The notes beneath the pieces are model-generated. The model saw only the letters and a list, made by a program, of their open reading frames with translations. It did no database searches and was not told where the DNA came from. Source: Anaerolineales bacterium (GTDB lineage Bacteria; Chloroflexota; Anaerolineae; Anaerolineales; Villigracilaceae). From it: DNA of 52,268 bases. How positions within the stretch are numbered: position 1 is the first letter of the stretch; each line of letters starts with the position of its first letter. Location of the stretch: the NCBI GenBank assembly GCA_021462845.1, contig JAJTXU010000004.1:1-52268 (forward strand), given 5' to 3'. The position numbers and the translations under genes are program-made. Shown in pieces: positions 9,885 through 32,234 of the stretch.

Positions 9885-9892
9885 TTATTTGA

Positions 9893-12300: not shown

Positions 12301-12341
12301 GAACATCCGCTCGTTCGCTTGGACGAGCGGATGTTTTTATT
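12301..12341. terminator. Bidirectional intrinsic terminator
   Basis: ACATCCGCTCGT pairs exactly with ACGAGCGGATGT, followed by TTTTTATT on the plus strand and preceded by an A-rich stretch for the minus strand. It separates the plus-strand protein gene from convergent lysK, whose stop lies inside it at 12337. Confidence 0.85.
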
Positions 12342-13377: not shown

Positions 13378-13388
13378 TGCGAATCTAT

Positions 13389-13440
13389 GACCATTGACCG
13401 CAGACCGTTGACCATCGTCTATTGTCCATCGTCCATCGTC
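13389..13440. repeat. CCATCGTCC / TTGACC word repeat at the lysJ 3' end
   Basis: Short words ACCATTGACC, ACCGTTGACCATCG and CCATCGTCCATCGTC follow one another. On the minus strand they write the last LysJ residues (MDDGQ) and its TAG stop, so this repeat lies partly in coding sequence. Confidence 0.6.
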
Positions 13441-15406: not shown

Positions 15407-15410
15407 AAGT

Positions 15411-15484
15411 TCTCCAGAAAATGAAGAAGTCAAAATGCAGAATGAAGAATTTAATGCCATTATTCTGCATTCATCATTCTGCAT
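15411..15484. repeat. ATGCAGAAT word repeat between lysY and lysZ
   Basis: Words AAATGCAGAATGAAGAA and TTCTGCATTCATCATTCTGCATTCTAA form a loose palindrome. The lysY stop TAG at 15486-15488 directly adjoins it. One of at least seven copies in this locus. Confidence 0.7.
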
Positions 15485-15485
15485 T

Positions 15486-16526: not shown

Positions 16527-16590
16527 CAATAATTCCTCCGTTTATATCCGTGAATCCGTTTTAGAGTCCGTTTATAACTTGCTCTGATCG

Positions 16591-17565
16591 TCAGGCAACC
16601 CCAAACAGCCGCGCCAAGATCGCCTTTTGAGCATGAAGCCTGTTATGCGCCTGCGGAAAAATAGCGGACTGTAAACCGTCCGCGACTTCATCGGTCAATT
16701 CGTGATTGCGATGCGCGGGCAAACAGTGCATTACGATCGCATCGTTCTCCGCCTCGCTCACCAACTGCTGATTGACTTGATATTCTGCAAACGTTTCTTC
16801 GCGTTTGGCAGTTTCTTCTTCCTGCCCCATGCTGGTCCATGTATCGGTATAGATCACGTTCGCGCCTTTCACAGCGTCATGCGGATTGTTATGGAAACAA
16901 ATCTCCGCGCCTGTTTCATTTGCAATTTGCTTCGCCGATTCAATTGCGTTCGCATCCATTTCATATCCAAGAGGATTCGCAATCGTAAAATTCCAGCCGA
17001 GTTTCGCGCAGACATGCATCAATGAAACCGCCACATTATTTCCATCGCCGATAAACGTGACATTCAAACCCCTGACTTTACCAAACTTTTCCTGAATTGT
17101 TAATGCATCGGCTAACGCTTGGCATGGATGGTTGTAATCGGTGAGTCCATTGATCACAGGCACGCTCGACCATTTGGCTAACTCAATGATATGTTCATGT
17201 TCAAAAACGCGCGCCATAATCCCTTGCACATAACCCGATAAGACCCGCGCCACATCCGCAATCGATTCACGCTTGCCGAGTCCGATCTCTGCGGGCGAAA
17301 GATACAGCGCGTGACCGCCCAAATGTTGCATCGCCATCTCAAACGAAACGCGCGTGCGTAAACTTGGCTTCTGAAACACCATCGCCAACGCCTTGCCCTT
17401 CAACAGCGGATCATTCCCGCCGTTGAAATATTCCTTCTTCAAATCAAGCGCCAGGTCTAACAACTCCTGCGTCTCTGCCGAAGAAAGATCGGCGATGTGC
17501 AAAAAATCTTTTTTCGTTATAAATTTCGGGCTTACAGCCACTTGCATTTCTTGAACATTCATCAT
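16591..17565 (-). CDS. argF: Ornithine carbamoyltransferase
   Basis: A 324-residue enzyme that makes citrulline from ornithine and carbamoyl phosphate. Carbamoyl-phosphate loop is [11 protein letters not shown] (SLRTR in place of the common STRTR), HPCQALAD is present, and the ornithine-binding [11 protein letters not shown] and [12 protein letters not shown] motifs are intact. Those motifs favour ornithine over other transcarbamylase substrates. Its place among lysW-linked genes shows that this carrier system also feeds arginine. Confidence 0.94.
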
Positions 17566-17629
17566 CGCTCCTAAAAATAAACACGCTGGCTCTTTTAGAG
17601 ACTGTTTCTCAACTTCTTTTTTTGAACAC

Positions 17630-17706
17630 GGACTCCACGGATTTCACTGATTTTCACGGAAAAGAGCTTTAAAAAGATTTTTCCGTGTGTTCCGTGAAAT
17701 CCGTGT
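17630..17706. repeat. CCGTGAAATCCGTG palindromic repeat
   Basis: Words ACACGGACTCCACGGATTTCAC and GTGAAATCCGTGTAC oppose each other around a short centre. Related words occur at 16546-16575 and 52195-52268. It occupies the 193-nt gap between argX and argF; I see no promoter or attenuator there. Confidence 0.65.
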
Positions 17707-17758
17707 ACAAAAGAACGGCTTTTAAACTTAATAAACATTCTCTTCGTGTCCTTTGTGT

Positions 17759-18625
17759 TTAAATCTTTTCCTTTACCATGCCAACCACATATTCCACGAT
17801 CTCGCCCGCAATATCAATCCCGCTGACGGGTTGCATCGTGTGGAACTCCATCGTGTGATTGATCTCGTTGACCACCAATCCCTTTTCGGAGTGTTCGACC
17901 AAATCCACAGCCAGCACGCCGCCGCCCACAGACTTCGCCGCCCGCAGGCACAAATCTTCGATCTCAGGCGTGATGGGACACAACTCCCCTTCTCCGCCGC
18001 GCGCCGTGTTCGTGATCCAATGCTCCGACTTGCGATACATCGCCGTCAGCACTTTATCGCCGATCACAATCGCCCGAATATCGCGCCCAGGTTTTTCAAT
18101 GTATTCTTGAATATAAAAAACGGAATGTTGCACCGACCCAAGCGTGGATTTATGTTCCAGCACCGCTTCCGCCGCATCACGGTCATTGACCTTCGCCAGC
18201 AATCGCCCCCACGACCCGACGACAGGCTTCAACACCACAGGATAGCCAAACGCTTCAATCGCTTCCAACGCGGCTTCGGGCGTGAACGCGGTTGCATTAT
18301 GCGGTTGCGGCACGCCGTCTCTTGCGAGCGCGGCGCTGGTCATCAACTTATCGCCGCAAATTTCCGCCACCGATGCCGTGTTCACCGTCGGCACACCAAA
18401 CGCATTCAACAAACGCAGAGCGTACAACCCGCTGTTATAACTGATGCTTCGTTCCAACACCGCGTCATACGTTTGCCACGGCTTCGGGTCGTTCAAGTCA
18501 AAATGAATCGCGCGGTCATCTAAACGGTCATAATCAATGCCGCGTTTTTCCAATGCGCCAAAGATCCACTTCTCTTCCACGCGCACGCGCGAATACAAAA
18601 CGCCTATCTTCAATCGTCGTTGCAT
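17759..18625 (-). CDS. argX: Glutamate--LysW ligase (ArgX-type ATP-grasp)
   Basis: A 288-residue ATP-grasp enzyme of the LysX/ArgX/RimK family. It would join the alpha-amino group of glutamate to the C-terminal Glu of LysW. Motifs: [72 protein letters not shown] and NEINHTMEF. It is paralogous to the protein at 31362-32234, with differences near the C-terminal substrate loop ([15 protein letters not shown] here versus [15 protein letters not shown] there). Glutamate specificity is inferred from the arg neighbourhood, not proven. GGAG precedes the ATG. Confidence 0.8.
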
Positions 18626-18641
18626 AAAAACTCCACAAGCA

Positions 18642-18704
18642 AAAGTTAGAATGATGAATGCAGAATTTTTTATTCATCCTTCTGCATTCATCATTCCGCA
18701 TTTC
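18642..18704. repeat. ATGCAGAAT word repeat between lysW and argX
   Basis: GAATGATGAATGCAGAATTTTTTATTC followed by CCTTCTGCATTCATCATTCCGCATTTC (described in parts) form a long imperfect hairpin. No other signal is seen in this gap. Confidence 0.7.
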
Positions 18705-18875
18705 CTATTCTCCCCAATCTTCCTGTTCCATAGGCGCGAGTTGCACAGCCGCAGGCTCCAGCGCAGTCACTTCCAAATCCACGCCGCAATCCGAGCAGAC
18801 CAAAATCTCGCCGACTTCGGTCCCAGCCGCCAACTCAACTTGGGCTTCACATTCAGGGCAGGTTACAGTATTCAT
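18705..18875 (-). CDS. lysW: Amino-group carrier protein LysW
   Basis: A 56-residue acidic carrier protein. The N-terminal zinc ribbon has CPEC (residues 6-9) and CSDC (27-30). The C-terminus is the diagnostic EDWGE, whose last Glu takes the substrate on its gamma-carboxylate. It protects the amino group of aminoadipate or glutamate and presents it to LysX/ArgX, LysZ, LysY, LysJ and LysK. AAGGAG precedes the ATG by 9 nt, inside the argH 3' end. It is the only lysW in the window, so it must serve both pathways unless a second copy lies elsewhere. Confidence 0.95.
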   Translation of the reverse strand: MNTVTCPECEAQVELAAGTEVGEILVCSDCGVDLEVTALEPAAVQLAPMEQEDWGE

Positions 18876-18879
18876 TTTC

Positions 18880-20241
18880 TTACTCTCCTTTGATTTTTTT
18901 GATTTGATTTTTTACAGATTGGAGACTCGTGCCGCCAATTGCATTTCTTTTTTCGACCGATTTCATCGGGTCAAACACTTGATAAACATCCGCCTCAAAC
19001 GCTGGACTTTCAGCCTGATACGCTTCGAGCGGCATTTTCTCCAGACTGACATTTCTCTCGCCCCCCGCGCGGACGACTCTCCCCGCCACTTCATGCGCCT
19101 TGCGAAACGGAACGCCTTTATTCACCAGATAATCCGCCAAGTCTGTCGCCAGCATGGATGAATCAATCGCATTCCGCATCCGTTCCGCTTTGACGGTGAT
19201 CGTTCTCAGCGCTTCGGCGATGACAGGCAATATCGCTAACAATGTATCCGTCGCCTGAAAGACGGGCGCTTTATCTTCCTGCAAATCTTTATCATACGTA
19301 GAAGGCAAACCTTTGAGCGCGGCTAACAAACCCGTCAGCAAGCCCAACAACGTGCCTGCTTTGCCTCGCGTCAACTCAAACACATCGGGATTTTTCTTCT
19401 GCGGCATCAAACTCGATCCCGTTGAAAATGCATCCGCCAATTCAAAGAAGCCAAACTCCGCGCTGGTGAATAGGACAATTTGCTCGGCAAGTTTGCTTAA
19501 GTGAATGCCGATCAGCGAAGCGCAGAAAAGATACTCCGCCGCAAAATCCCTGTCTGAGACGGCATCCAGACTGTTTTGCGAAACGTCCGCAAAGCCAAGC
19601 GACTCCGCCAACGCGACTCGGTCAATCTCAAACGGTACGCCCGCCAACGCGCCGCTCCCCAACGGCAAAACTGAGACGCGCTTCACCAAATCGTTCAAGC
19701 GTTCAACATCTCTCTGCAATGGCTGGACATGACTCAGCCACCAATGCGCCAACAGAATCGGTTGCGCTCTTTGCAAGTGGGTGTAGCCAGGCATAATGGT
19801 CGCGTCTGCGAGTTCCGCCCGCTCCACTAAAGCGTTTTGCAAATTCTTCAACGCCGATTGCAACTCAGGAATCGCGCCCAACATCCACAAGCGGAAGTCC
19901 GTCGCCACTTGGTCGTTGCGGCTTCTGCCCGTGTGCAATTTGCCCGCCGCATCGCCGATCAACTCGGTTAACCTGCGTTCAACCGCCGTGTGAATATCTT
20001 CATCGGAAGGTTGGAAGATAAATTGTCCCGAAGCGAATTCTTTTCGGACGGTATCCAGCCCAAGGGCGATTGAGGCGTGTTCTTTATCCGCAAGCACGCC
20101 CGCTTGATGAATCGCGCCCGCCCACGCGAGGCTCCCGTCAATATCCTGAAGCGCCATGCGTTGATCCACAGGCAGGGAAGAATTCAAATCCCAGGCTTGT
20201 TGATTAAGTTTGGTTGAAAAACGTCCGCCCCAGAGGGTCAT
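18880..20241 (-). CDS. argH: Argininosuccinate lyase
   Basis: A 453-residue enzyme that splits argininosuccinate to arginine and fumarate. N-terminal LWGGRFS, active-site TGRSRNDQVATDFRLW, GYTHLQRAQPILLAHW and the superfamily signature GSSLMPQKKNPD are all present. I start at ATG 20241 because AAGGAG sits 5 nt upstream; an ATG at 20256 would place that Shine-Dalgarno inside the gene. lysW begins 5 nt after its stop. Confidence 0.95.
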   Translation of the reverse strand: MTLWGGRFSTKLNQQAWDLNSSLPVDQRMALQDIDGSLAWAGAIHQAGVLADKEHASIALGLDTVRKEFASGQFIFQPSDEDIHTAVERRLTELIGDAAGKLHTGRSRNDQVATDFRLWMLGAIPELQSALKNLQNALVERAELADATIMPGYTHLQRAQPILLAHWWLSHVQPLQRDVERLNDLVKRVSVLPLGSGALAGVPFEIDRVALAESLGFADVSQNSLDAVSDRDFAAEYLFCASLIGIHLSKLAEQIVLFTSAEFGFFELADAFSTGSSLMPQKKNPDVFELTRGKAGTLLGLLTGLLAALKGLPSTYDKDLQEDKAPVFQATDTLLAILPVIAEALRTITVKAERMRNAIDSSMLATDLADYLVNKGVPFRKAHEVAGRVVRAGGERNVSLEKMPLEAYQAESPAFEADVYQVFDPMKSVEKRNAIGGTSLQSVKNQIKKIKGE

Positions 20242-20255
20242 GTGATCTCCTTTCA

Positions 20256-20343
20256 TGTCGTTGCGAGGAGCGCTCTTGTTCTTTGCGACGAAGCTTAATT
20301 AGGAGATTGCTTCGAGCGGAAGAACGCCGCTCTCGCAATGACA
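20256..20343. repeat. TGTCGTTGCGAG terminal-inverted-repeat element, copy 1
   Basis: Ends are TGTCGTTGCGAG and CTCGCAATGACA (11 of 12 complementary), with GACGAAGC and GATTGCTTCG words inside. It starts immediately after the argG stop codon. A second copy at 37582-37710 also lies exactly after a stop codon. Confidence 0.8.
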
Positions 20344-21615
20344 TCAATCTCTTTTGAACTTCGAATAATCAGGCTTGGGCATATCCAAACCTGAAACAGG
20401 CAAACCGTTCAACGCGCGGACTTTGAGGCTGAGCCCATACAAGCGGATGAAGCCTTCGGCGTGGCTTTGATCGTAGACATCTTCTTCGCCGAAAGTTGCG
20501 AAATCTTCGCGATACAAACTGAACGGAGATTTTTTACCAGCGGTGATGATATTGCCTTTATACAACTTGAGTTTGACCAACCCAGTGACGGGTCCTTGCG
20601 TTGCGTTGACGAATGCGTCAATCGCTTCGCGCAGTGGCGTAAACCACAAGCCGTTGTAAGCGACCTCGGCATATTTGACAGCGACCATCTCTTTGAAGTG
20701 CATGGTCTCGCGGTCAAGCACAAGCGATTCGAGTTCGCGGTGGGCATATAAAAGAATTGTGCCGCCTGGGGTTTCATAAACGCCGTGCGATTTCATCCCC
20801 ACGAGTCGATTCTCAACGAGGTCAACTCTTCCGATACCATGCGCTCCGCCGATGGCGTTCAGCGTTTGCACGATCTTCGCGGGCGAAAGTTTTTCTCCGT
20901 TCACCGCAATCGGATTGCCGCTTTCAAATTCGATCTCTACATATCCCGCTTCATCGGGCGCGCTCTCGGGCGAAGCGGTCATCTGATACATGGCTTCTTC
21001 GGGTTCGTTCCATGGGTCTTCGAGCAAACCGCCTTCATGCGAAAGATGCCACAGATTTGAATCGCGCGAATAAATGGATTTAATGGTGGCGGTGACTGGC
21101 ACGTTATGTTTCGCGGCGTAGGCAATCGCATCCTCCCGCGAGCGGATATTCCACTCACGCCACGGAGCGATGATCTTCAAGCGCGGGTCCAGCGCCATGA
21201 CGGTCAACTCAAAGCGGACTTGATCGTTGCCCTTGCCCGTCGCGCCGTGCGCGATCGCATCCGCGCCCACTTGATGCGCGACATCCACCAAATGTTTTGC
21301 AATTAAAGGACGGGCAACCGATGTGCCCAATAAATACTTATGTTCATAGACCGCCCCCGCTTTGAGCATTGGAAAGAGATATTCCGCCGCAAACTCTTCT
21401 TTCATATCGTGAATAATGCACTGACTCGCGCCGCTGTTGATCGCTTTCTGCTCCAAGCCGCGCATATCTTCATCGCCCTGCCCCACGTCCGCGCAAAAGC
21501 AGACGACTTCACAGCCGTAGTTTTCTTTCAACCACGGCACGATCACGGACGTATCCAAGCCGCCTGAATAGGCGAGGACAACTTTCTTCACTTGCGGTTT
21601 TGATTTCGATTTCAT
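20344..21615 (-). CDS. argG: Argininosuccinate synthase
   Basis: A 423-residue ATP-dependent ligase of citrulline and aspartate. PP-loop [10 protein letters not shown] (about residues 13-22), [14 protein letters not shown] and the C-terminal [10 protein letters not shown] region are seen. The open frame runs on to 21867 but that part is a regulatory leader read in another frame. ATG 21615 has AAGGAG 5 nt upstream. First structural gene of a nine-gene operon (argG to lysK) behind an arginine-rich leader peptide and terminator. Confidence 0.96.
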
Positions 21616-21660
21616 TTTTGCTCCTTGTAATATGGTATGCCGATTTAAGTCGGCGTTACG

Positions 21661-21702
21661 CAAAATAAAAACAGCCCACCGTTTCAAGGTGGGCTGTTTT
21701 GG
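21661..21702 (-). terminator. Attenuator terminator of argG
   Basis: On the minus strand AACAGCCCACC pairs with GGTGGGCTGTT (11 bp, 13 with flanking A/T pairs) around TTGAAAC, followed by TTTATTTTG. It lies 18 nt after the leader-peptide stop and 45 nt before the argG start. The 5' arm plus loop (ending CCACCTTG) can pair instead with CAAGGTTGGGTT at 21763-21774, a competing antiterminator. Confidence 0.88.
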
Positions 21703-21718
21703 TTGACTTATGCGTGTG

Positions 21719-21829
21719 TCAGCGCGCGCTTGCGCTTGCCGCTCCATCATCGAAACAAAAAGAACCCAACCTTGTAGTTGAGGTACGCTTCGAACGACGG
21801 ATACGCGGTGCGAACACTTTGGATAACAT
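21719..21829 (-). CDS. Arginine-rich leader peptide of argG
   Basis: A 36-residue leader ORF. It begins MLSK, has the Arg cluster RIRRSKRT (codons 9-16: CGT ATC CGT CGT TCG AAG CGT ACC), a further Arg at codon 20, and Arg as the last residue before TGA. Aligned without gaps to the carA leader peptide, 14 of the first 26 residues are identical. The codons right after the Arg cluster form hairpin 1:2 (21764-21784, ACCT-C-AACT / GGTTGGGT). A ribosome waiting at the Arg codons would mask strand 1 and favour the antiterminator. Confidence 0.82.
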
Positions 21830-21839
21830 ATTGGGCAGT

Positions 21840-21867
21840 ATTCTACTCGCAATGTGAAATGTGTCAA
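21840..21867 (-). promoter_or_regulatory. Promoter of the argG attenuator
   Basis: TTGACA (21862-21867), a 16-bp spacer starting CATTTCAC, and TAGAAT (21840-21845). The leader-peptide ATG is exactly 10 nt after the -10 box, leaving roughly 3-4 nt of 5' UTR and no room for a Shine-Dalgarno. The same geometry and spacer words occur at carA and the lysine operon. Confidence 0.85.
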
Positions 21868-21898
21868 TAGTTTTCAAGAAATTCGTTTTACGAAGTCG

Positions 21899-24800
21899 TT
21901 ATCGCGTTACTTGATGATGACTCTGCAAACTGCGATACTTCAATTCTTTCTTACGCATGGCTTGAATGGCGGAGGTTGCCGCGGTGGCGGAGGATAATGT
22001 CGTCAACAATGGCACGTTCATCGCGATTGCCGCCTTGCGGATCTCGGCGCCGTCAGTATGCGCGTGCGGACCCAGCGGCGTGTTCAAGACCAATTGAATT
22101 TTTCCAGCGCGGATCAAATCCACAATTTGCGTCGAGCCGTCTTGCGCTTTTTCGACGACTGCAACGGGTAAGCCTGCCCTCATGCACATATCTGCCGTGC
22201 CAGGCGTGGCATACAAATTGAATCCCATGCGGTGCATATCGCGCGCAAACTTCAAGCCCGCGCTTTTATCATAGTCGTTGACCGTGATCAACACCGCGCC
22301 TGCATCGGGCAAGCCTTGTCCCGCCGCTGTTTGTGATTTTGCAAAAGCATGACCAAAATGCGAGGCGTGCCCCATCACTTCGCCCGTTGAGCGCATCTCA
22401 GGTCCAAGCAGTGAACTGGAGCCAGGCAATTTTTTGAACGGAAAGACCGCTTCTTTGATGAAGAAGCCGTCCACTTGCGGTTCTTCCGTCACGCCAAGTT
22501 CTTGCAGTTTTTTTCCAGCCATCACTTGCGCCGCCACATACGCCATGTTCAAATTTGTCGCTTTGCTCGCGTATGGCACGGTTCTGGAAGCGCGCGGATT
22601 CACTTCCAATACATACACGATTTCATCTTTCAACGCGAACTGCACGTTCATCAACCCGCGCACGCCAAGCGCGATTCCAAGTTGTTCGGTATATTCGCGC
22701 ATGATTCCCTGATGATACGCGCTGACTTTATACGGCGGCAAAACGCACGCCGCATCGCCCGAATGCACGCCTGCCTCTTCAATATGTTGCATCACCGCGC
22801 CCACGACGACTCGTTCGCCATCGGATAATGCGTCCACGTCAATTTCAAACGCGTCTTCCAAAAATTTATCAATCAAGATCGGTTGATTGGGAGCCGCCTC
22901 GATCGCCCGTTGAATGAATCCTGCCAGGTTGGCTTCTGAATCCACTAACGCCATTGCCCTGCCCCCCAACACAAAAGACGGGCGGACTAAAACAGGATAG
23001 CCGATTCGTTGAGCGACTTCTCGCGCCTCTTCCAACGTGCGGGCGATTCCATTTTCAGGCTGGGGGATATCCAACTCTTTGAGCAGTTTCGCGAACTCTT
23101 CGCGGTCTTCGGAGAGTTGAATGGCATGAGGCGATGTGCCCAAAATTTTGACTCCAGCCGCTTCCAGCCCTGCCGCGAGATTTAAGGGAGTCTGCCCGCC
23201 GAATTGCACGATGACTCCAATGGGTTGCTCTTTGTCAATTACGTTCAATACATGCTCAAGAGTCAACGGCTCAAAATACAATCTATCGGCTGTATCGTAA
23301 TCGGTGGAGACGGTTTCAGGGTTGCAGTTATACATGATGGTTTCGTAGCCCATCTTTGACAAGGCAAACGCCGCCTGACAACAACAATAATCAAACTCGA
23401 TTCCCTGACCAATTCGATTCGGTCCGCCGCCGAGGATTAATATCTTTTGCTTATCTGTCGGGCGCGATTCATCATCCATCTCATAAGCAGAATAAAGATA
23501 CGGCGTCTGTGCTTCAAACTCTGCGGCGCAGGTATCGACTCTCTGAAATGTAGGTAATATTCTAAGACTTTTGCGTAGTTCTCTAAAGGATGAATGATGA
23601 AGGAGGAAGGATGAATTTAAGAGCCGCGCAATGTGCGCGTCTGCAAATCCCATTTGCTTTGCAGAACGTAAAATCGGTTTGAGTTCTTCTTCGGTCTTGC
23701 AATCTCTAATCTCTAATTCTCTAATCTCTATCTCTTTCATTTGCGCCAAGAACCAAAGATCGTATCCCGTCACTTTGGCAATTTCATCCAAAGCCATGCC
23801 CTGACGGATGGCGCGATAGACGCGGAACAATCTATCGGCGGCGGGAATTGTCAGCGTGACGAATGTTTCAGGTTCAGCGACCAACTCGCGGTTAGGTCCC
23901 GAACCGTCGAGCGCGTCCACGCCGATTTCCAAGGATTGAATCGCTTTATTCAAGGCTTCGGGAAACGTCCTGCCTAATGCCATCGCTTCGCCGACTGATT
24001 TCATTTGCGGACCGAGCGTGGGATCCACGCCTGGAAATTTCTCGAACGCCCAGCGCGGAATTTTTACAACGACATAATCGAGCGAAGGCTCGAAGGCGGC
24101 TTTAGTTTGTTTGGTGATGTCGTTGGTGATTTCATCGAGCGTGTACCCAACGGCGACCAGCGCGGCGAGTTTGGCAATTGGAAAACCCGTGGCTTTGGAT
24201 GCCAGCGCCGACGAACGACTGACGCGCGGATTCATTTCGATGACGACGACGCGCCCCGTGTTTGGGTCCACGCCGAATTGAACATTCGAGCCGCCAGTTT
24301 CAACACCAACAGCAGATAACACGCGATGTGCAAGGTCACGCAGGATTTGATACTCGCGGTCTGTTAAAGTTTGCGCGGGCGCGACGGTGATACTATCGCC
24401 AGTATGCACGCCCATCGGGTCAAGATTTTCAATCGAACAGACGACGACAAAATTATTTTTCTTATCGCGCATCACTTCGAGTTCGTATTCCTTCCAACCT
24501 AAAACCGATTCTTCGAGCCAGGCTTGATGAATGGGCGATTCGGAAATTGCAACGCGAACCGCTTCGGCAAGTTGATTCGCTTCATACACCCACGAAGCGC
24601 CCGTGCCGCCCATTGCGAACGAAGCGCGGACTAAAACGGGATAGCCCGTCTCTTTGACGAGTTCTTCCGCTTCTTCGAGCGAATACGCCGCTCCGCCGCG
24701 CGGGACGGGGATATTATTTTTTTGCATGGTCTCACGAAATAACATGCGGTCTTCGGCGGCTTTGATGGCTGTGAGATTTGCGCCAATCAATTGCACGCCA

Positions 24801-25129
24801 TATTTTTCTAACACGCCGTTTTCGCTTAATGCCAGCGCAAGATTCAATCCCGTTTGCCCGCCGACGGTGGGGAGCATGGCATCGGGTTTTTCCTGCGCGA
24901 TGATGGCTTCCAACGCTTCGGGAGTTAATGGCTCGATATACGTTGCATCGGCAATTTCGGGGTCGGTCATGATCGTGGCGGGATTCGAGTTGACCAAAAC
25001 CACGCGATAACCTTCCGCTTTCAACGCTTTGACCGCTTGCGTGCCAGAGTAATCAAACTCCGCGGCTTGACCGATGACAATGGCTCCCGAACCAGGGACG
25101 AGGATGGTGTGGATGTCTGCGCGTTTCAT
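21899..25129 (-). CDS. carB: Carbamoyl-phosphate synthase large subunit
   Basis: A 1076-residue synthase that makes carbamoyl phosphate from ammonia, bicarbonate and two ATP. Two ATP-grasp halves are visible: [20 protein letters not shown] and [25 protein letters not shown] in the first; [25 protein letters not shown] and [16 protein letters not shown] in the second; a C-terminal MGS-type allosteric domain ends the protein. Odd: the oligomerisation/linker region holds two stretches encoded by intergenic repeat words, [13 protein letters not shown] (about 464-476) and [11 protein letters not shown] (about 505-515). The reading frame stays intact, so it is probably functional. Confidence 0.96.
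23587..23617. repeat. GGATGAATGATGAAGG repeat inside carB
   Basis: A run of AAGGATGAAT and ATGATGAAGG words lies in frame in carB and encodes [11 protein letters not shown]. Fourteen bases, TGAATGATGAAGGA (23591-23604), match the carA-carB spacer at 25142-25155 exactly. Confidence 0.75.
23699..23739. repeat. AGAGATTAG repeat inside carB
   Basis: AGAGATTAGAGAATTAGAG words (minus strand) encode [13 protein letters not shown] in frame. TTAGAGAATTAGAG is shared exactly with the non-coding stretch at 41500-41513. Confidence 0.75.
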
Positions 25130-25141
25130 AAGGATGAACTC

Positions 25142-25240
25142 TGAATGATGAAGGATGAATTATTTGCCGCTAAGAACGCGAAGGCCGCTAAGAATCTTTT
25201 TAAAACTTTGCGTTCTTGGCGGGCTTCACGGTTCAAATTT
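25142..25240. repeat. Mixed word repeats between carA and carB
   Basis: First the TGAATGATGAAGGATGAAT words, then CGCTAAGAACGCGAAGG opposed by CTTTGCGTTCTTGGCGG, a different palindromic family. No terminator or promoter is obvious, so carA and carB are probably co-transcribed through it. Confidence 0.6.
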
Positions 25241-25252
25241 GTTGAGCTAGAT

Positions 25253-26392
25253 TTAATCATTATCTTTGTCTTTCATCATTTTGAAAAACTCATTGAAAAT
25301 ATCATGCGCGTCATGCGGGCCCGCCGCGGCTTCGGGATGAAATTGCACGCTGAAGATAGGCTTGTTCTTCATCTTCAACCCTTCCAATGAATCATCGTTC
25401 AAACTTTTATAAGTGATTTCAACTTCATCTTTATTCAAATCCCCTTCAGTGACGCAGTAATTATGATTTTGCGCGGTGATTAAGACTTTTCCGCTGGGCA
25501 GATGTTGCACGGGATGATTCCCGCCGTGATGACCGAATTTCAACTTATGCGTATCCGCGCCCAATGCTCTGCCGATCAATTGATGCCCTAAACAAATCCC
25601 AAAGATTGGCGTATTGCTTTCGATCAATTTGCCGACCGCTTTCACCGCATACGGCAAACCTGCTGGGTCGCCAGGTCCGTTGGAGAGGAAGATTCCATCG
25701 GGCTTCAACGCCAGCGCTTCATCCGCAGTAGTGTCGGCAGGGACAACGGTCACATTCGCGCCGCAACTGGATAAGTGACGCAAAATATTTTCCTTGATCC
25801 CAAAATCATAAGCCACCACTTTCCACTTTCTACTCACTGATGACTGATCACTGTTCACTGCCTGCACCCACTTGCTGCCCTCATCGTCCACCCAATGATA
25901 AGACTCGCCGCATGTCACTTCCTTGACCACATCTCTGCCGTCGAGTCCTTCCCATGCCCGCGCCATCTTCAACAATTCTTCAGCGGACGTTCCTCTCGTA
26001 GATAACGCCGCTTTTTGAACGCCGCCATCGCGCAGTTTGCGAGTGAGCCAACGCGTGTCCACGCCGCTGATGCCAGGCACATGCTGTTGCGCCAGCCAAT
26101 CGGACAATGAAAGCGCCGACCGCCAATTCGATACGGCTGGACTCAATGACCGAATCACCGCCGCCGAAACTTGCGGCTTCGCCGACTCGTCATCTTCCAA
26201 ATTAATGCCCACATTGCCAATGTGCGAAACCGTGAACAAGACTCCCTGTCCGCGATACGAAGGGTCGGTCAAAATTTCCTGATAACCCGTCATGCTGGTA
26301 TTGAACACCAATTCAAATACCGCATCGGTTTTCGCGCCGAAGGCTTGACCTTCAATTACCGTTCCATCTTCAAGTACAAGTACAGCCGTCAT
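25253..26392 (-). CDS. carA: Carbamoyl-phosphate synthase small subunit (glutaminase)
   Basis: A 379-residue class I glutamine amidotransferase subunit that delivers ammonia to CarB. N-terminal domain with [17 protein letters not shown] and [15 protein letters not shown]; glutaminase domain with nucleophile Cys in [10 protein letters not shown] and the His/Glu pair in [11 protein letters not shown]. The linker before VVAYDFGIK contains [12 protein letters not shown], encoded by AGTGATCAGT/AGAAAGTGG repeat words, which looks like an in-frame repeat insertion. AAAGGA precedes the ATG. It is expressed behind its own arginine-rich leader and terminator. Confidence 0.95.
25815..25863. repeat. AGTGATCAGT / AGAAAGTGG repeat inside carA
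   Basis: In-frame word repeat in the CarA interdomain linker. Its 18 bases AGTAGAAAGTGGAAAGTG (minus strand of 25817-25834) occur exactly at 32268-32285 in a non-coding region after lysX. Confidence 0.8.
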
Positions 26393-26417
26393 TCTTTCAT
26401 CCTTTCGTTAGCGCCAT

Positions 26418-26453
26418 ACAAAAAAACAACCCTCCGAAAGGGAGAGTTGTTTT
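26418..26453 (-). terminator. Attenuator terminator of carA
   Basis: On the minus strand AAAACAACTCTCC pairs with GGAGGGTTGTTTT (13 bp with one G-T) around CTTTC, followed by a run of seven Ts. It ends 25 nt before the carA ATG. The 5' arm can instead pair with GAAAGGTTGGATTGTTTT at 26506-26523 (15 of 18 positions), the competing antiterminator. Confidence 0.88.
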
Positions 26454-26577
26454 AATTAACATTTCGTTTCGTATTCCGAATCGCGTCTGCGCTTTGAGCA
26501 AAATCAAAACAATCCAACCTTTCGAAAAAAGTTCGTTTGAGACGACGGATACGACGGGTGGAATATTTCACCAACAT
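26452..26577 (-). CDS. Arginine-rich leader peptide of carA
   Basis: A 41-residue leader ORF beginning MLVK, with the cluster RRIRRLKRT at codons 8-16 (Arg 8, 9, 11, 12, 15) and later Arg at 20, 34 and 38. The CGT ATC CGT CGT codons are base-identical to those of the argG leader. Downstream codons form a hairpin with a UUCG loop (CAAACGAACTTTT / AAAGGTTGGATTG, 26510-26539) that competes with the antiterminator. Oddity: the stop codon overlaps the terminator 5' arm, so a ribosome finishing the peptide would briefly cover it. Confidence 0.8.
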   Translation of the reverse strand: MLVKYSTRRIRRLKRTFFERLDCFDFAQSADAIRNTKRNVN

Positions 26578-26587
26578 GTCGGGCGGT

Positions 26588-26615
26588 ATTCTACTATCAA
26601 CGCGAAATGTGTCAA
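26588..26615 (-). promoter_or_regulatory. Promoter of the carA attenuator
   Basis: TTGACA (26610-26615), 16-bp spacer starting CATTTCGC, TAGAAT (26588-26593), then exactly 10 nt to the leader ATG. Near-identical layout to the argG and lysine promoters. Confidence 0.85.
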
Positions 26616-26732
26616 GATTTTTACAATGCAATTGAGTTTAAAAATCTATTGTTGGCGCTTTTGCTTTATCGTAAGACAAAATATGTCTGACAAATTAATG
26701 AAACCAGATTTGAAATTTGCACATCAAAACCA
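26616..26732. other. Divergent regulatory gap between carA and lysine promoters
   Basis: A 117-nt AT-rich stretch between the two outward-facing promoters. It holds a small inverted repeat, AGACA-AAATA-TGTCT (about 26677-26691), that could be an operator. No ORF of note. Confidence 0.4.
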
Positions 26733-26760
26733 TTGACATATTTCACATCACGGTTAGAAT
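26733..26760 (+). promoter_or_regulatory. Promoter of the lysine operon attenuator
   Basis: TTGACA (26733-26738), 16-bp spacer starting TATTTCAC, TAGAAT (26755-26760), and exactly 10 nt (TCGCCCCAAC) to the leader ATG. It shares the TTGACAYATTTCRC signature with argG and carA. Confidence 0.87.
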
Positions 26761-26770
26761 TCGCCCCAAC

Positions 26771-26896
26771 ATGTTTAGAGACAAAGCAAGTATTCTGATG
26801 GAAGCCAAATCAAAGCGCAAGCCCATCTCCACAACTTCGGTTGTCGGGATCGGGCTTGTTTCGGTTGAACAGAATCGGGAGAAGGACTTGCTGTAG
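26771..26896 (+). CDS. Lysine-rich leader peptide of the lysine operon
   Basis: A 41-residue leader ORF. It starts MFRDK and has the cluster KSKRK at codons 13-17 (AAA TCA AAG CGC AAG). The last of these codons begins strand 1 of a long hairpin (26818-26835 with 26840-26858; 17 paired bases, UUCG loop). Strand 2 alternatively pairs with the terminator 5' arm: TTGTCGGG-ATC-GGGC at 26841-26855 against GCGCCCTCCGACAA. This is the classical four-strand attenuator arrangement, with Lys codons placed where a stalled ribosome would open hairpin 1:2. Confidence 0.85.
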   Translation: MFRDKASILMEAKSKRKPISTTSVVGIGLVSVEQNREKDLL

Positions 26897-26922
26897 TTCT
26901 TTGCATCTATCTGTATGCCGTC

Positions 26923-26959
26923 AAAGCGCCCTCCGACAACGGAGGGCGCTTTTTATTTT
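26923..26959 (+). terminator. Attenuator terminator of the lysine operon
   Basis: AAAGCGCCCTCCG and CGGAGGGCGCTTT are exact complements (13 bp) around ACAA, followed by TTATTTTC. It lies 26 nt after the leader stop and 20 nt before the homocitrate synthase ATG. Confidence 0.9.
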
Positions 26960-26978
26960 CATGACCAAAGGAACGCTT

Positions 26979-28361
26979 ATGTTTGAAATTTTAGATACAA
27001 CCTTACGCGAAGGCGAGCAAACGCCGTATGTCAACTTCACGATCGAAGAGAAAACGAACATCGCCAAATTATTGGATGATGTCGGCGTGGAGATGATCGA
27101 AGCGGGCGATCCGTCCGTCTCAAAAAATGTCGCCAAGGCGATAGAAAAGATCGCCGCTCTCGGACTTCGGGCTGAGGTGGTCGCCCACAGCATTGCCGCA
27201 CGCTCAGGCATTGACCGCGCCAAAGCCTGCGGCGCGGATCGCGTCGCCATCTTTTACGCCACATCCAAAATTCACTTGGATGAAAAACTGCATAAAACGC
27301 CCGCGCAAGCGCTTGAAATTATCCGCGAGCATATTTGTTATGCAAAAAGTTTGGGATTAAAAGTCCGCTACACGCCCGAAGACGCGACGCGCACCGAGTT
27401 TGATTTTCTCGTGCAAATTTGTAACGCCGCCATCGAAGCGGGCGCGGACCGCATCAGCTTTGCGGACACATTGGGCATTATGCAACCGCACACCATGTAC
27501 GAGCGAGTCGCGGCATTGCGCGAGGCTCTGCATCCATGTCAAATGGATTTGCATTGCCACGACGATTATGGGCTTGCCTTAGCCAACGCCATGGCAGGGA
27601 TTCGCGCAGGCGCAAACTGCATCCACACCACAGTCAACGGCTTGGGCGAACGCACGGGCATCCCCGATCTAGCCGAAACGATTTTATCTTTTCATAATCT
27701 GGAAGGGGTCCAAAAATACAACATCCAGCCGCTCATGGAACTTTCGGCATATCTGGAAAAAATTTCTGGCTTCTTCCTCTCCCCCAACAAACCCATCACG
27801 GGACAAAACGCATTCAGCCACAAGAGCGGAGTCCACACCAACGGCGTGCTAAAAGATCCGCGCACCTACGAACCATTTGACCCCGCCATATTGGGGCGCG
27901 AGCGAAAGATCGTGATTGATAAATACACAGGCAAAAGCGCAGTCGCTTCGCGTTTGGAAGAATACGGCATCGAAGTCAGCGCGGCGGAGTTGGAAGTGAT
28001 CGTTTCGCGCATCAAAAATGTCGGCGATGAGCGCAAACAGCTTTTCGACGCGGATATTTTAGAGATCGCCGAGCAGGTGACGGGTAGAGAGATTGACGTG
28101 ATCCCCCGCGACATCAGCGCGATGTTGATGGTCGAAGTCGAATCGCATGTGTACACGTCTTCGGTCGTGCGTCGTATGCGCGGATTCACCAACGTCTCGA
28201 ACGTGTACGAAATCACAGGCGACTTTGACATCAGCGCCTTCATCAACGTGGAAAATGTTTCAGCGTTGAATAATCTCATCGAAGAAATCCGCACCGTGCC
28301 TGGCGTCAAGCGGACGGATACGAAAATGGTCTTGAAAAAATATAACGGCAATAACAAATGA
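26979..28361 (+). CDS. lysS: Homocitrate synthase with C-terminal RAM-like domain
   Basis: A 460-residue DRE-TIM metallolyase. It condenses acetyl-CoA and 2-oxoglutarate in the first step of the AAA pathway. DTTLREGEQTP at residues 6-16, LHCHDDYGLALANA (metal His) and NGLGERTGIPDL are typical. After the catalytic and linker regions, about residues 378-455 (SAMLMVEVESHVYTSS... TVPGVKRTDTKMVL) look like an Lrp/AsnC RAM ligand-binding domain, as in archaeal homocitrate synthases; this suggests lysine feedback. Isopropylmalate synthase is excluded mainly by context and the RAM domain. ATG 26979 follows AAAGGA. Confidence 0.88.
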   Translation: MFEILDTTLREGEQTPYVNFTIEEKTNIAKLLDDVGVEMIEAGDPSVSKNVAKAIEKIAALGLRAEVVAHSIAARSGIDRAKACGADRVAIFYATSKIHLDEKLHKTPAQALEIIREHICYAKSLGLKVRYTPEDATRTEFDFLVQICNAAIEAGADRISFADTLGIMQPHTMYERVAALREALHPCQMDLHCHDDYGLALANAMAGIRAGANCIHTTVNGLGERTGIPDLAETILSFHNLEGVQKYNIQPLMELSAYLEKISGFFLSPNKPITGQNAFSHKSGVHTNGVLKDPRTYEPFDPAILGRERKIVIDKYTGKSAVASRLEEYGIEVSAAELEVIVSRIKNVGDERKQLFDADILEIAEQVTGREIDVIPRDISAMLMVEVESHVYTSSVVRRMRGFTNVSNVYEITGDFDISAFINVENVSALNNLIEEIRTVPGVKRTDTKMVLKKYNGNNK

Positions 28362-28446: not shown

Positions 28447-29709
28447 ATGGGCACATTGATTGAAGAAATTTTCTCGCGCAAAGCGGGCAGGCAAATTCAC
28501 GCGGGCGAAATCCTGTTGCTGGACGTGGACTACATCATGAGTCACGACAACACCACGCCGCTTGCTATCAAGGCGTTTCAAGCGATTGGCAAACCGATCT
28601 TGGATAAAAATCGCATCGTCATTCACTTTGACCATGCCTACCCCGCCCCGAATGTTTTAGCGGCGGAGAATCATAAAAAGATCATCGAGTTTGTGCAGGC
28701 GCAGGAACTGCCGCATTTTCTGCATCAGGGCGTTTGCCATCAGGTGATGATCGAAGAAGGTTTCATCACGCCAGGCGCAATCGTCATCGGCGCGGATTCG
28801 CATTCCAACACTTATGGCGCGTTAGGCGCGTTTGGCACGGGGCTTGGCTCGACGGAAATTGGCGTGGCATGGGCGACAGGCAAATGCTGGTTCAAAGTCC
28901 CTGAGACGATTCGCGTGGAGTTGAGCGGTCAAGCCCAACACGGAGTCTATGCCAAAGACGTGATGATTCACATCGCGGGCTTACTCGGCATGGATGGCGG
29001 AACGTATCGCTCAGTGGAGTTCGGCGGCGAATACATTGACAACCTGCCGATGCACGAACGGATCATTTTCCCAAACATGTCCACGGAGATTGGCGCGAAA
29101 TGCGGCTTGATCGCGGCGGATGAAGTGACGATCAACTATCTCGAAAACGAGACTCCCGCCGAAGGTCCGTTTGAAGCGTTGCATCCCATCAACCCGCGCT
29201 ATGAACGCATCCTTGAAATTGACGTTGCGACTCTAACTCCGCAAGTATCTTGTCATCCCGATGTGGATAACGTCAAGCCGTTGGCTGAAGTGGAAGGCTT
29301 GGATGTGAATGAAGTTTATATCGGCACATGCACGAACGCGCGTTATGAAGATTTGGAAATTGTGGCGAACATGTTGAAAGGCAAAAAAGTGAATCCGCTG
29401 GTGCGGGTCATCGTCACGCCCGCCAGCGACCGCATTTACAAGAAGGCGTTGAAAAACGGCTTGATCGAAATTTTGATGGACGCGGGTTGCACTGTCACGG
29501 GTTCGGGTTGCGGCGCATGTATTGGTCGGCACGGCGGAATCCTTGCGCCAGGCGAACGCGCGCTCACCACGATGAATCGCAACTTCATCGGTCGCATGGG
29601 AAGCCCGCTCTCGGAGATTTATTTGGCGAGTCCCGCAACCGCCGCCGCCACCGCGCTCACGGGAAAAATTACGGATCCGCGCAATCTATTAATGCAAATT
29701 GCAGAATGA
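28447..29709 (+). CDS. lysT: Homoaconitase large subunit
   Basis: A 420-residue aconitase-superfamily large subunit. With LysU it isomerises homocitrate to homoisocitrate through homoaconitate. Iron-sulfur cysteines are in GTCTNARYEDL (about residue 296) and SGCGACIGRHGG (CxxC, about 356-359). SHDNTTPLAIKAF and GADSHSNTYGALGAFG are substrate or cluster loops. LeuC-like isopropylmalate isomerase is the alternative; the lysine neighbourhood decides. GGAGGA precedes the ATG. Confidence 0.9.
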   Translation: MGTLIEEIFSRKAGRQIHAGEILLLDVDYIMSHDNTTPLAIKAFQAIGKPILDKNRIVIHFDHAYPAPNVLAAENHKKIIEFVQAQELPHFLHQGVCHQVMIEEGFITPGAIVIGADSHSNTYGALGAFGTGLGSTEIGVAWATGKCWFKVPETIRVELSGQAQHGVYAKDVMIHIAGLLGMDGGTYRSVEFGGEYIDNLPMHERIIFPNMSTEIGAKCGLIAADEVTINYLENETPAEGPFEALHPINPRYERILEIDVATLTPQVSCHPDVDNVKPLAEVEGLDVNEVYIGTCTNARYEDLEIVANMLKGKKVNPLVRVIVTPASDRIYKKALKNGLIEILMDAGCTVTGSGCGACIGRHGGILAPGERALTTMNRNFIGRMGSPLSEIYLASPATAAATALTGKITDPRNLLMQIAE

Positions 29710-29772
29710 AGAATGATGAATTGCCAACTCGCAACATTCTGCATTCTTCATTCTAACTTCTACATTCAATAA
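29710..29772. repeat. ATGCAGAAT word repeat between lysT and lysU
   Basis: GAAGAATGATGAATTGCC and CATTCTGCATTCTTCATTCTAAC oppose each other. It starts at the lysT stop and ends shortly before the lysU AAAGGAG. Confidence 0.7.
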
Positions 29773-29784
29773 AGGAGACTCATT

Positions 29785-30294
29785 ATGGGAAAAGCTTGGA
29801 CATTTGGCGAAAACATGAACACGGATGAAATCATCCCTGGTCGTTTCAATATCACGATTGACCCGCTCGAACTTGCAAAAAATGTTTTTTGCGAAGTCAA
29901 ACCTGAATATGCAAAAACCGTACAATCTGGCGACGTGATCGTCGGCGGTCAAAATTTTGGATGCGGCTCATCGCGCGAACACGCGCCGATCGCCATCAAA
30001 GGCTCGCAGGCAAAATGTATCATCGCGCCATCGTTTGCCAGAATCTTTTTTCGCAACGCCATCAACATCGGCTTGCCAATTTTGGAATGTCCCGAAGCGG
30101 TTGCGGACATCACCGAAGGCGATGACATTGACGTCAATTTATCCACTGGCGAAATTTTCAATCGCACCAACGGGCGTCAATATCAAGCGCAAGCCCTGCC
30201 CGATTTCGTTTTGAAAATCGCGGAAGCGGGCGGCATCGTCAACTTTTTGAAAACGCACGATATTCAAGATCTATTGATGAATGCAGAAGGATGA
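29785..30294 (+). CDS. lysU: Homoaconitase small subunit
   Basis: A 169-residue swivel-domain subunit. NMNTDEIIPGRF (residues 12-23), FGCGSSREHAPIAIK (substrate Ser-Arg loop) and ARIFFRNAINIGLP are typical of LeuD/LysU. The last residues (MNAEG) and the stop are written by ATGAATGCAGAAGGATGA repeat words, and the next gene starts 3 nt later in the same repeat, giving close translational coupling. Confidence 0.92.
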   Translation: MGKAWTFGENMNTDEIIPGRFNITIDPLELAKNVFCEVKPEYAKTVQSGDVIVGGQNFGCGSSREHAPIAIKGSQAKCIIAPSFARIFFRNAINIGLPILECPEAVADITEGDDIDVNLSTGEIFNRTNGRQYQAQALPDFVLKIAEAGGIVNFLKTHDIQDLLMNAEG

Positions 30295-30297
30295 AGG

Positions 30298-31308
30298 ATG
30301 AATTATAAAATCTGCCTGCTCTCTGGCGATGGAATTGGACCCGAAGTGATCGCTTCGGCAAAGGATGTTTTATCGGCGCTTCCGCTTCAATGGGATTTTG
30401 TGGAAAGCGGCATTGGATTTGGCGAATATCAACGCTCAGGCTCCCCTCTGCCTGATTCAACGCTCCAAGCCATTCGCCACGCCGACGCGACTCTCTTCGG
30501 CGCTGTGACCACTCCGCCCAACATCCCGAATTATTTCTCCCCCGTCGTGCGGATGCGCCAGTCTTTGGATTTATATGCAAACCTGCGTCCCTGCAAATCC
30601 ATTCCGCACGAATCATCGAAACCCAACATTGACATCATCATCGTCCGCGAAAATACCGAAGGCTTGTATTCGGGAATTGAAAGAGTCGAAGACAATGGAG
30701 ACAAAGCCATCACCGAACGAGTCATCACGCGCAAAGGCTCGGAGCGCATCATCCGCAAAGCGTTTGATTTGGCAAGACAAACGAAGCGTAAATCCGTACA
30801 TGTGATTCACAAAGCCAACGTGCTTCGTCAAACCTGCGGACTCTTTCGCACGGTCGCGCTGGAAGTTGCCAACGAATATCCCGAAATCGCCATGCTCGAA
30901 ATGCTCGTGGATACCTGCGCCATGGAATTGATCCGCGCACCTGAGCAGTTCGAGGTCATCGTGACGACGAATCTCTTCGGCGACATCCTCAGCGATGAAG
31001 CCTGCATGTTCGTCGGCGGACTCGGCGTCGCCGCTTCGGGAAACATCGGCGTAAATGCCGCAGTCTTCGAGCCAGTGCACGGAAGCGCTCCGCCGTTGGT
31101 CGGCACAGGCAAAGCCAATCCCATCGCCATGCTTTTAGCAACAGCGATGATGTTAGATCACATCAACGAAAAAGAACACGCCCAAAAATTGAACAGCGCC
31201 ATTCAAGCCTGCATCGCTAACAAAGAAACCACGCCCGATTTAGGCGGCGTATTGACGACGAATGAAGTGACAAAGAGAGTCAAAGCTAGAATGCAGAATG
31301 AAGAATGA
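30298..31308 (+). CDS. hicdh: Homoisocitrate dehydrogenase
   Basis: A 336-residue beta-decarboxylating dehydrogenase that converts homoisocitrate to 2-oxoadipate. N-terminal [11 protein letters not shown], substrate loop [16 protein letters not shown] (the ASP-type Arg motif of the HICDH/IPMDH group), [13 protein letters not shown], metal Asp in [10 protein letters not shown] and NAD-binding [24 protein letters not shown] or IDH alternatives are less likely by operon context. The terminal RMQNEE is repeat-derived (AGAATGCAGAATGAAGAA), like the LysU end. Confidence 0.9.
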
Positions 31309-31349
31309 AGAATTTCATTTCGCATTCTGCATTTTGCATTCCACATTTA
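31287..31349. repeat. ATGCAGAAT word repeat at the end of hicdh
   Basis: AGAATGCAGAATGAAGAATG is followed by CGCATTCTGCATTTTGCATTCC. The first part is coding (hicdh C-terminus), the rest is the 53-nt spacer before lysX with its own AAGGAG. Confidence 0.7.
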
Positions 31350-31361
31350 CAAGGAGAAAAT

Positions 31362-32234
31362 ATGAAAACTCGAGTCGGATTTTTATACACCCGCTTGCGC
31401 GCCGAAGAAAAATATTTGATAGATGAATTTGAAAAACATGAAGACGTGGAACTTGTCCGCATCAACGACGGCGATACGTTCTTCGACATTCACCAATTGC
31501 CAGAAGAAATTGACGTGCTGTTTGAACGTTCCATTTCCTATTCACGCGGGCTGTACATCTCGCGCATCTTTGAAGCGCACGGCATCCCCGTCGTCAATTC
31601 ATCGGCGGTGGCTGAAATCTGCGGCGATAAATATGTGACGAGTCAACTGCTCGCCAAGAACGGCATCCCCACTCCCAGAGTGCTGATGGCTTTCGACGAA
31701 GAATCCGCTCTACGGGCGATTGAAGCGTTGGGCTATCCTTGCGTATTGAAACCAGTCGTCGGGTCATGGGGGCGCTTGCTCGCCAAAGTCGAAAACAGAG
31801 CCCAAGCCGAATCGTTGATCGAGCATAAATCTTCGCTCGGAGTCAATCATCAAGTTTTTTACATTCAAGAATACATCAACAAACCTGGGCGCGACATCCG
31901 CGCATTCGTGGTCGGCGATGAATGTATCTGCGCCATCTACCGCTCCTCCGAAAATTGGATCACCAACACCGCGCGCGGCGGCATCGCCACCAACTGTCCA
32001 GTAACTGATGAGATTGCAGAGATTTGTCACTGCGCCGCGCAAGCCATCGGCGGCGGTTTGCTCGCGCTCGATCTATTTGAAACCGAAAGCGGATACACCA
32101 TCAACGAAGTCAATCACACGATGGAGTTTCGCAACAGCATCACCACCACGGGCGTGAACATCCCGCAAAAGATGATTGAATATGTTTTGCAAAATGCGAT
32201 TCAGGAAGATCAGCCCTGTAAGGTAAATGTTTAG
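31362..32234 (+). CDS. lysX: Alpha-aminoadipate--LysW ligase
   Basis: A 290-residue ATP-grasp ligase. It attaches 2-aminoadipate to the C-terminal Glu of LysW. Same motif series as Arg[71 protein letters not shown] and NEVNHTMEF. The C-terminal loop [12 protein letters not shown] resembles the form I recall for Thermus LysX (NSVHTTGVDIP), supporting aminoadipate use. ATG 31362 follows AAGGAG; the open frame from 31305 is repeat sequence. Last gene of the lysine operon. Confidence 0.87.

Follow-up and report, generated by a model that had tools for sequence, protein, structure and literature searches.

A predicted leaderless attenuator with Lys control codons upstream of the LysW-type lysine biosynthesis genes in an Anaerolineales bacterium

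Introduction

The attenuators of the enteric trp, his, thr and leu operons have leader open reading frames (ORFs) with a ribosome-binding site, and these ORFs stop near strand 1 of the leader RNA. For lysine, Tsubouchi and colleagues reportedly found, in about 2005, that the lysine (hcs) gene cluster of Thermus thermophilus is controlled by a leader-peptide attenuator. That attenuator reportedly belongs to the same pathway and precedes the same first gene as the leader analysed here, its leader ORF contains Lys codons, and it acts by transcription attenuation. T. thermophilus belongs to a different phylum.

Leader peptides with a start codon close to the 5' end of the transcript are described in Actinobacteria. 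The transcription start of Corynebacterium glutamicum ilvBNC is one nucleotide from the leader start codon, and alternative hairpins and control codons are present (PMC11857589); a title in the reference list of the same paper states that the leader peptide is produced without a ribosome binding site. In mycobacteria, cysteine-responsive attenuation by leaderless short ORFs is described (PMC13236596).

The window, i.e. the whole stretch of 52,268 nucleotides analysed here, is one contig of the 4.17-Mb genome (362 contigs) of an Anaerolineales bacterium. The window leader has the features of an attenuator, namely end-product codons before and in strand 1, a terminator and mutually exclusive pairings. 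It shares with the enteric attenuators the four-strand logic, the end-product codons and the intrinsic terminator, and differs from them in the ORF that continues through strand 2 and in a fifth helix between strands 2 and 3. It resembles the C. glutamicum attenuator in the hairpins, the control codons and the start codon near the transcription start (predicted in the window), whereas the C. glutamicum system concerns branched-chain amino acids, has a 15-codon leader peptide and belongs to another phylum (PMC11857589). The mycobacterial leaderless short ORF senses the amino acid by its own codons, as proposed here for the window leader; for the cysteine case, however, PMC13236596 mentions translation attenuation and not a terminator, whereas the window leader has a terminator. 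The window leader would work like the classic attenuators, as a well-supported new case of a known kind of control; leaderless attenuators are known in Actinobacteria. No description of these leaders was recognised in the literature searched, which included papers on the phylum or on LysW together with attenuation (among them PMC9413887) and PMC3556520.

Results and discussion

Gene context

The leader is located between the lysine cluster and the oppositely oriented arginine cluster (Table 1). According to the encoded sequences, the genes 3' of the leader are those of the LysW/aminoadipate (LysW-type) lysine pathway. The Lrp/AsnC-type ligand-binding domain at the C-terminal end of the homocitrate synthase may allow direct feedback by lysine or another amino acid. 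The arginine cluster includes LysW, the second LysX-like gene and LysZ/J/K-type genes (window positions 12337–25129, minus strand), and its small LysW ends with ...EDWGE. The search of the genome yielded a single LysZ-type gene, a second match being weak (34% over 102 residues). The Lys-type genes of the arginine cluster suggest that the LysW route is common to arginine and lysine.

Table 1. Positions of the leader elements and neighbouring genes in the window
Feature	Position	Strand	Remarks
Promoter	26733–26760	+	-35 TTGACA 26733–26738, 16-nt spacer, -10 TAGAAT 26755–26760; 11/12 consensus matches
Leader ORF	26771–26896	+	41 codons + TAG (MFRDKASILMEAKSKRKPISTTSVVGIGLVSVEQNREKDLL); ATG at 26771, TAG 26894–26896
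Control codons 13–17	26807–26821	+	AAA-TCA-AAG-CGC-AAG; codon 15 (26813–26815) is the conserved Lys
Strand 1	26818–26835	+	pairs with strand 2
UUCG loop of 1:2 hairpin	26836–26839	+	
Strand 2	26840–26858	+	pairs with strand 1 or strand 3
Fifth helix	26862–26920	+	between strands 2 and 3; arms 26862–26873 and 26910–26920; fits both conformers
Intrinsic terminator	26923–26952	+	strand 3 26923–26935, loop ACAA, strand 4 26940–26952, then U-rich tail
Homocitrate synthase (hcs)	26979–28361	+	HMGL and HCS_D2, C-terminal Lrp/AsnC ligand-binding domain; first gene after leader
Homoaconitase-type large subunit	28447–29709	+	lysine cluster
Homoaconitase-type small subunit	29785–30294	+	lysine cluster
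Homoisocitrate dehydrogenase type	30298–31308	+	lysine cluster
LysX	31305–32234	+	lysine cluster (genes after hcs: 28447–32234)
Arginine cluster		-	carA, carB, argG, argH, LysW, second LysX-like gene, argF, argC/lysY, lysZ, lysJ, lysK
Sister leader before carA	26452–26577	-	MLVKYSTRRIRRLKRTFF...; same promoter; terminator 26453–26423
Sister leader before argG	21719–21829	-	same promoter; terminator 21700–21668

Promoter and leader ORF

As the ATG of the leader ORF is located 10 nt 3' of the -10 box, the ORF is predicted to be leaderless. A transcription start about 7 nt after the -10 box would leave no space for a usual ribosome-binding site before the ATG. In 48 orthologous leaders (see below), the start codon lies 10 nt (31 leaders), 8 nt (10), 9 nt (2), 7 nt (1), 14 nt (3) or 5 nt (1) beyond the -10 box, so that the spacing is 7–10 nt in 44 of the 48, the transcription start being predicted in each. 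In the 5-nt case (L105) the scan took a TTG, and an ATG lies at 8 nt. On this spacing, the leader ORF is probably leaderless. The ORF reads through strands 1 and 2 before its stop codon.

The extended promoter pattern TTGACNNATTTCN10TAGAATNCNNCCCNAYATG has exactly three matches in the 4.17-Mb genome with up to three mismatches, one at each of the three leaders in Table 1, from which the pattern itself was built.

RNA strands and folding with a stalled ribosome

A preliminary description of the window, made from the sequence, had called the leader a textbook four-strand attenuator for lysine. Re-reading of the window sequence reproduced its strand coordinates and sequence. The 1:2 hairpin with the UUCG loop has the 17 pairs it gave, plus a closing G-U pair in the fold, and the 13 pairs of the terminator stem are likewise present, with a 4-nt loop and TTATTTT following. 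In the competing pairing, the partner of strand 2 (GUUGUCGG) comprises strand 3 with its loop and a single base of strand 4 (CCGACAAC). The terminator is placed between the leader ORF and the first structural gene. The leader region 26771–26959 folds at -74.3 kcal/mol, compared with a mean of -51.1 kcal/mol for 200 dinucleotide shuffles (z = -5.33, none of the 200 as low). The 1:2 and 3:4 hairpins alone have energies of -25.1 and -24.9 kcal/mol, and the antiterminator conformer has -39.9 kcal/mol, of which the inner domain alone contributes -16.9.

The preliminary description would have been contradicted if 2:3 could not compete with 1:2 when strand 1 is blocked. For the folding, the ribosome front was assumed to lie 13 nt beyond the first base of the codon at which it stalls. 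With strand 1 unmasked, the window transcript ending after strand 3 shows 16.9 expected pairs for 1:2 and none for 2:3. A stall at codon 15 gives 13.3–14.8 pairs of 2:3 in the same transcript. Thus 2:3 does compete, with about 13–15 expected pairs as against 0–0.2 in the free state. A stall at codon 13 gives a mixture, which shifts to 2:3 after one more base. In all 50 leaders folded, masking of strand 1 gains more than four pairs of 2:3, and the median number of 2:3 pairs is 1.1 in the free state and 16.5 in the masked state. In 38 of the 50 leaders the masked 2:3 pairing exceeds that of 38 or more of the 40 shuffled versions of strand 2, and in 12 it does not, and a shuffled strand 2 averages about eight pairs in the masked fold; because of these two results, the masked fold alone is modest evidence.

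In the full-length transcript, 3:4 wins in every masked state. With a stall at codon 15, 12.5 pairs of 3:4 are expected as against 0.6 of 2:3, and the best masked fold has -50.5 kcal/mol as against -39.9 for the antiterminator conformer. The equilibrium of the full-length transcript favours 3:4, and antitermination must therefore be kinetic, i.e. 2:3 has to form before strand 4. The classic attenuators likewise need 2:3 before strand 4 is made.

The word 'textbook' has to be qualified: the ORF is predicted to be leaderless and continues through both arms of 1:2, the full-length transcript still favours the terminator at equilibrium, and the place of codon 17 is occupied by Lys in only 27 of the 48 orthologous leaders. 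The probable leaderless nature of the ORF, its readthrough of strands 1 and 2, the fifth helix and the Arg nature of the other two leaders had escaped the preliminary description.

Orthologous leaders and compensatory changes

Relatives of the homocitrate synthase were searched in three sets. Strong relatives (E ≤ 1e-100) were found in 42 of 152 genomes of the family, a class-wide draw gave 8 of 396 genomes at 1e-90, and the named genomes gave 47 loci, among which the window's own record may be absent. Remoter homologs, mostly below 40% identity, were left out. After removal of duplicates, and of L103 and its G132 counterpart in which the gene start is missing, 54 distinct upstream regions were obtained. 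The 47 named records are presumably all from Chloroflexota, judging from the names, which are mostly Anaerolineales, Anaerolineae or Chloroflexi. One of the Lys leaders (L102) belongs to the cultured Pelolinea submarina MO-CFX1.

One scan, which asked for a promoter, a start codon and a peptide with K[RH]x(1-2)P, was positive in 48 of the 54 regions. In L062, L089 and L109, such a leader is located farther upstream or has a weaker -10 box. In L114, where lysW stands ahead of hcs, a diverged leader (WTKQGQ) is found before lysW. The contigs of L060 and L065 reach only 139 and 150 nt upstream, which places these two outside the testable set. A comparable leader ORF with a Lys codon is thus present in 52 of the 52 testable regions, including the diverged L114; as 48 of these were selected by the motif, the weight of this count is that no testable region is left over. 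The terminator was found in 50 of 51 leaders searched, the exception being L062, whose ATG was missed by the script.

The competing helices were examined in an alignment of 50 sequences. For 1:2, 3:4 and the inner helix together, 84.4% of the cells are paired, compared with 34–50% for slid versions, and 25 of 40 pairs are changed on both sides, compared with 16.8 in shuffles (none of 500 as high). In the terminator helix, 90.7% of the cells are paired, and both sides have changed in 8 of the 13 pairs. The inner helix region shows compensatory changes, for example at columns 128/178 (AU 17, GC 14, GU 8). For the 2:3 conformer with the inner helix, 81.2% of the cells are paired, compared with 43–51% for slid versions, and 64 cells are changed on both sides, compared with 26.1 in shuffles (0/500 as high). 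By another measure, 13 of 24 pairs of this conformer are changed on both sides, compared with 9.8, and 17 of 500 shuffles are as high. Because the counted structures derive from the first sequence, the slid control is biased in their favour. When the alignment was folded to a consensus with no guide structure, eight pairs of the terminator were recovered but only five of 1:2, of which three are shifted by one base relative to the counted structure, and none of 2:3. This poor recovery may be due to the conformers excluding each other and to distant rows being misaligned. The substitution patterns indicate that the mutually exclusive 1:2, 2:3 and 3:4 pairings are under selection, the indication being weaker for 2:3.

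An RNA covariance model was built from 42 leaders, eight of the 50 being omitted as poorly aligned. It gave one strong match in the own genome (143.7 bits). As for a second Lys leader in this genome, the next matches have 24.0 and 23.1 bits; the former is the same terminator on the other strand, and the latter shows no leader by eye. The model also gave strong matches in two genomes without an hcs match at the cut-offs used. One is in G070, with KSKRTP before a LysX-like gene, and the other is in G117, with AKAKRSASP before a cut-short hcs. In G117 (L295 183–545, L213 423–524), the KR region of the Lys leader is altered and the homocitrate synthase frame ends early, as if the gene were decaying or the assembly broken. 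Three of the weak class-wide matches (L271, L273 and L276) show no leader by eye.

Upstream of the Lys promoters, an ACCC-WNNW-GGGT palindrome (a loose pattern) was observed in 13 of the 48 regions, for example in L035, L068 and L033; it is absent from the window. Three Lys regions have two copies about 33 nt apart, 10 of 69 argG upstream regions have the palindrome, and it occurs in 0.6% of mononucleotide shuffles of the Lys regions. From its sequence, the palindrome looks like an operator for a DNA-binding regulator.

Sister leaders before carA and argG

The carA and argG leaders are Arg versions, with RxRR where the Lys leader has KxKR. Strong argG matches were found in 77 genomes, and 69 of the 70 regions read carry an ORF of the leaderless type; the Arg-richer ORF was taken where a region had several candidates. 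RxR[RH] is present in 68 of these 69 leaders. Masking gains 2:3 pairs in 57 of 68 argG leaders, and the gain is absent in 11. The carA leaders are patchier, as the scan gave no leader in 25 of 39 regions read.

The third-position Arg of RxRR is encoded by CGT in 68 of 68 argG leaders, compared with 25 CGT among 215 Arg codons in eleven window genes. Some folded argG leaders place the CGT codons in a predicted stem, by eye. RNA pairing, rather than a tRNA signal, may explain the CGT in these leaders.

Against the 70 argG loci, the RNA model gave 39 matches, of which two strong ones (L206 and L213) are divergent Lys leaders and the remaining 37 have at most 24.7 bits. The case for a common descent of the Lys and Arg leaders thus rests on the promoter and the codon layout and not on the structure score.

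Control codons

The preliminary description placed the end of the Lys codons at the start of strand 1. Codons 13 and 15 do precede strand 1, whereas codon 17 (26819–26821) is located inside it. The fourth Lys codon of the window leader is at position 5. The key Lys, at the place of codon 15, is present in 48 of 48 leaders, in which Lys was required by the scan, and also in the four regions viewed separately; the Lys codon is thus kept in orthologous leaders, as the preliminary description demanded. Two residues before the key Lys, Lys is found in 37, Arg in 7, Asn in 3 and Gly in 1 of the 48 leaders. K-R-x-P is nearly constant, being partly demanded by the scan. The KRxP stretch and the codons ahead of it contain only two to four Lys codons, which counts against attenuation.

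The key Lys is encoded by AAG in 47 of 48 leaders, L102 having AAA, and in 50 of 52 when the four extra leaders are included, L089 also having AAA; the choice of the key Lys in L114 is a judgement, and the sequences are kin, so that the counts are not independent. AAG makes up about one third of the Lys codons in the compared genes, with 71 AAG and 166 AAA in eleven window genes and 92 AAG and 186 AAA in the 5' parts of hcs in 54 orthologs. Both tRNA-Lys with the UUU anticodon and tRNA-Lys with the CUU anticodon are present in the genome (30 of 48 tRNA places scanned). The near-invariant AAGCGC could pair with GCGCUU of strand 4 in the window and in several relatives; this pairing was rejected because it fails, by eye, in relatives whose terminators have no GCG(C/T), and because ensemble folds of the 50 leaders show no consistent RNA partner for the key AAG. 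Judging from these codon comparisons, the near-invariant AAG appears to go beyond codon counting.

The residue after the key Lys is Arg in 47 of the 48 leaders and His in one, which raises the possibility of a dual sensor for Lys (codon 15) and Arg (codon 16). The adjoining arginine cluster, with its LysW, LysZ, LysJ, LysK and LysX-like genes and the single LysZ-type gene found, agrees with this, as its LysY/Z/J/K and LysW functions may serve both pathways. However, the Arg is replaced by His in L102 and L089 and by Gln in L114. Of the 48 leaders, 43 encode this Arg by CGC and 4 by CGA; none uses CGT, in contrast to the argG leaders. A Lys in the argG leaders was also considered as a second sensor and is not supported, since it is kept in just 42 of 68 and is present too in genomes without an hcs match. 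We regard the dual sensor as rather unlikely.

Selection on the leader peptide

Codons 5–12 of 23 distinct MFRD-type leaders show a pN of 0.080 and a pS of 0.553 (ratio 0.08), compared with a ratio of 0.55 for codons 19–26. These values are simple pairwise averages with no tree, and codons 2–4 were omitted since the group was chosen by them. The ratios point to purifying selection on the N-terminus of the leader peptide that goes beyond codon counting. Of the 48 leaders, however, 24 combine hairpins of this kind with other N-termini, and the MFRD-type peptide is therefore not essential to the design.

The low ratio and the near-constant K-R-x-P would also be expected of an arrest peptide, in which the nascent leader peptide, possibly with free lysine, stalls the ribosome and a shortage of Lys-tRNA is not the main signal. 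The N-termini that differ before like hairpins argue against it; besides, the Pro codon is inside strand 1, so that pairing may hold it. An arrest peptide is thus improbable as the main explanation.

Other types of leader

A lysine riboswitch, a T-box or another known leader RNA could be imagined from the site before a lysine operon and the terminator. The only Rfam family at its gathering score in the window is one tRNA, and a permissive scan of 26380–27000 gave 16 matches, all below the gathering scores and none of them a lysine riboswitch or a T-box; on the minus strand, Phe_leader (22.2 and 20.5 bits, cut-off 55) and PyrR (24.1 bits, cut-off 54) were among them. A known leader RNA of this sort is hardly credible here. 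The region might also be unregulated, the ORF being fortuitous and the terminator an ordinary one or one that ends a transcript from upstream. Terminator-like hairpins are indeed common (35 found and 26.2 expected in 8000–27500), but this reading has a negligible chance of being correct, because the leader ORF follows a promoter in every testable region, the terminator recurs in nearly all leaders searched and the competing helices show compensatory change.

Proposed mechanism

The computed anatomy, conservation, compensatory changes and masked-fold switch point to a ribosome-mediated transcription attenuator that very probably responds to the supply of charged Lys-tRNA and governs the genes for homocitrate synthase, homoaconitase, homoisocitrate dehydrogenase and LysX. 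The Lys-tRNA-sensing reading of the preliminary description is supported, in this modelled form, by the masked folding and the conservation in orthologs. Transcription would start at or a few bases from the leader ATG, and the ribosome would begin on the 5' end. When Lys-tRNA is short, strand 1 would be covered by a ribosome stalled at codon 13 or 15, or at codon 17 in leaders that have Lys there. Then strands 2 and 3 would pair, together with the inner helix, ahead of strand 4, and the polymerase would continue. When Lys-tRNA is ample, the ribosome would pass strands 1 and 2 to the UAG at 26894. After its passage, 1:2 would re-form behind it, strand 3 would pair with strand 4, and transcription would end in the U-rich tract after 26952. 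The expression of the cluster would, by this kinetic control, follow lysine.

As a tentative extension of this attenuator, the three leaders may be one paralogous family retargeted between arginine (R-x-R-R) and lysine (K-x-K-R) by a swap of control codons, keeping the dedicated extended promoter and the leaderless start. Stalling may then also depend on the nascent peptide, with its N-terminus under apparently strong purifying selection, and on the tRNA-Lys reading the key AAG. This extension as a whole is possible but less likely than not.

With these leaders, attenuation by amino acids would also cover the LysW-type synthesis of lysine and arginine in Anaerolineae. The versions for the two amino acids, located side by side, lend themselves to studying how such a sensor switches from one amino acid to another, and the version in the cultured P. 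submarina makes the leader experimentally accessible.
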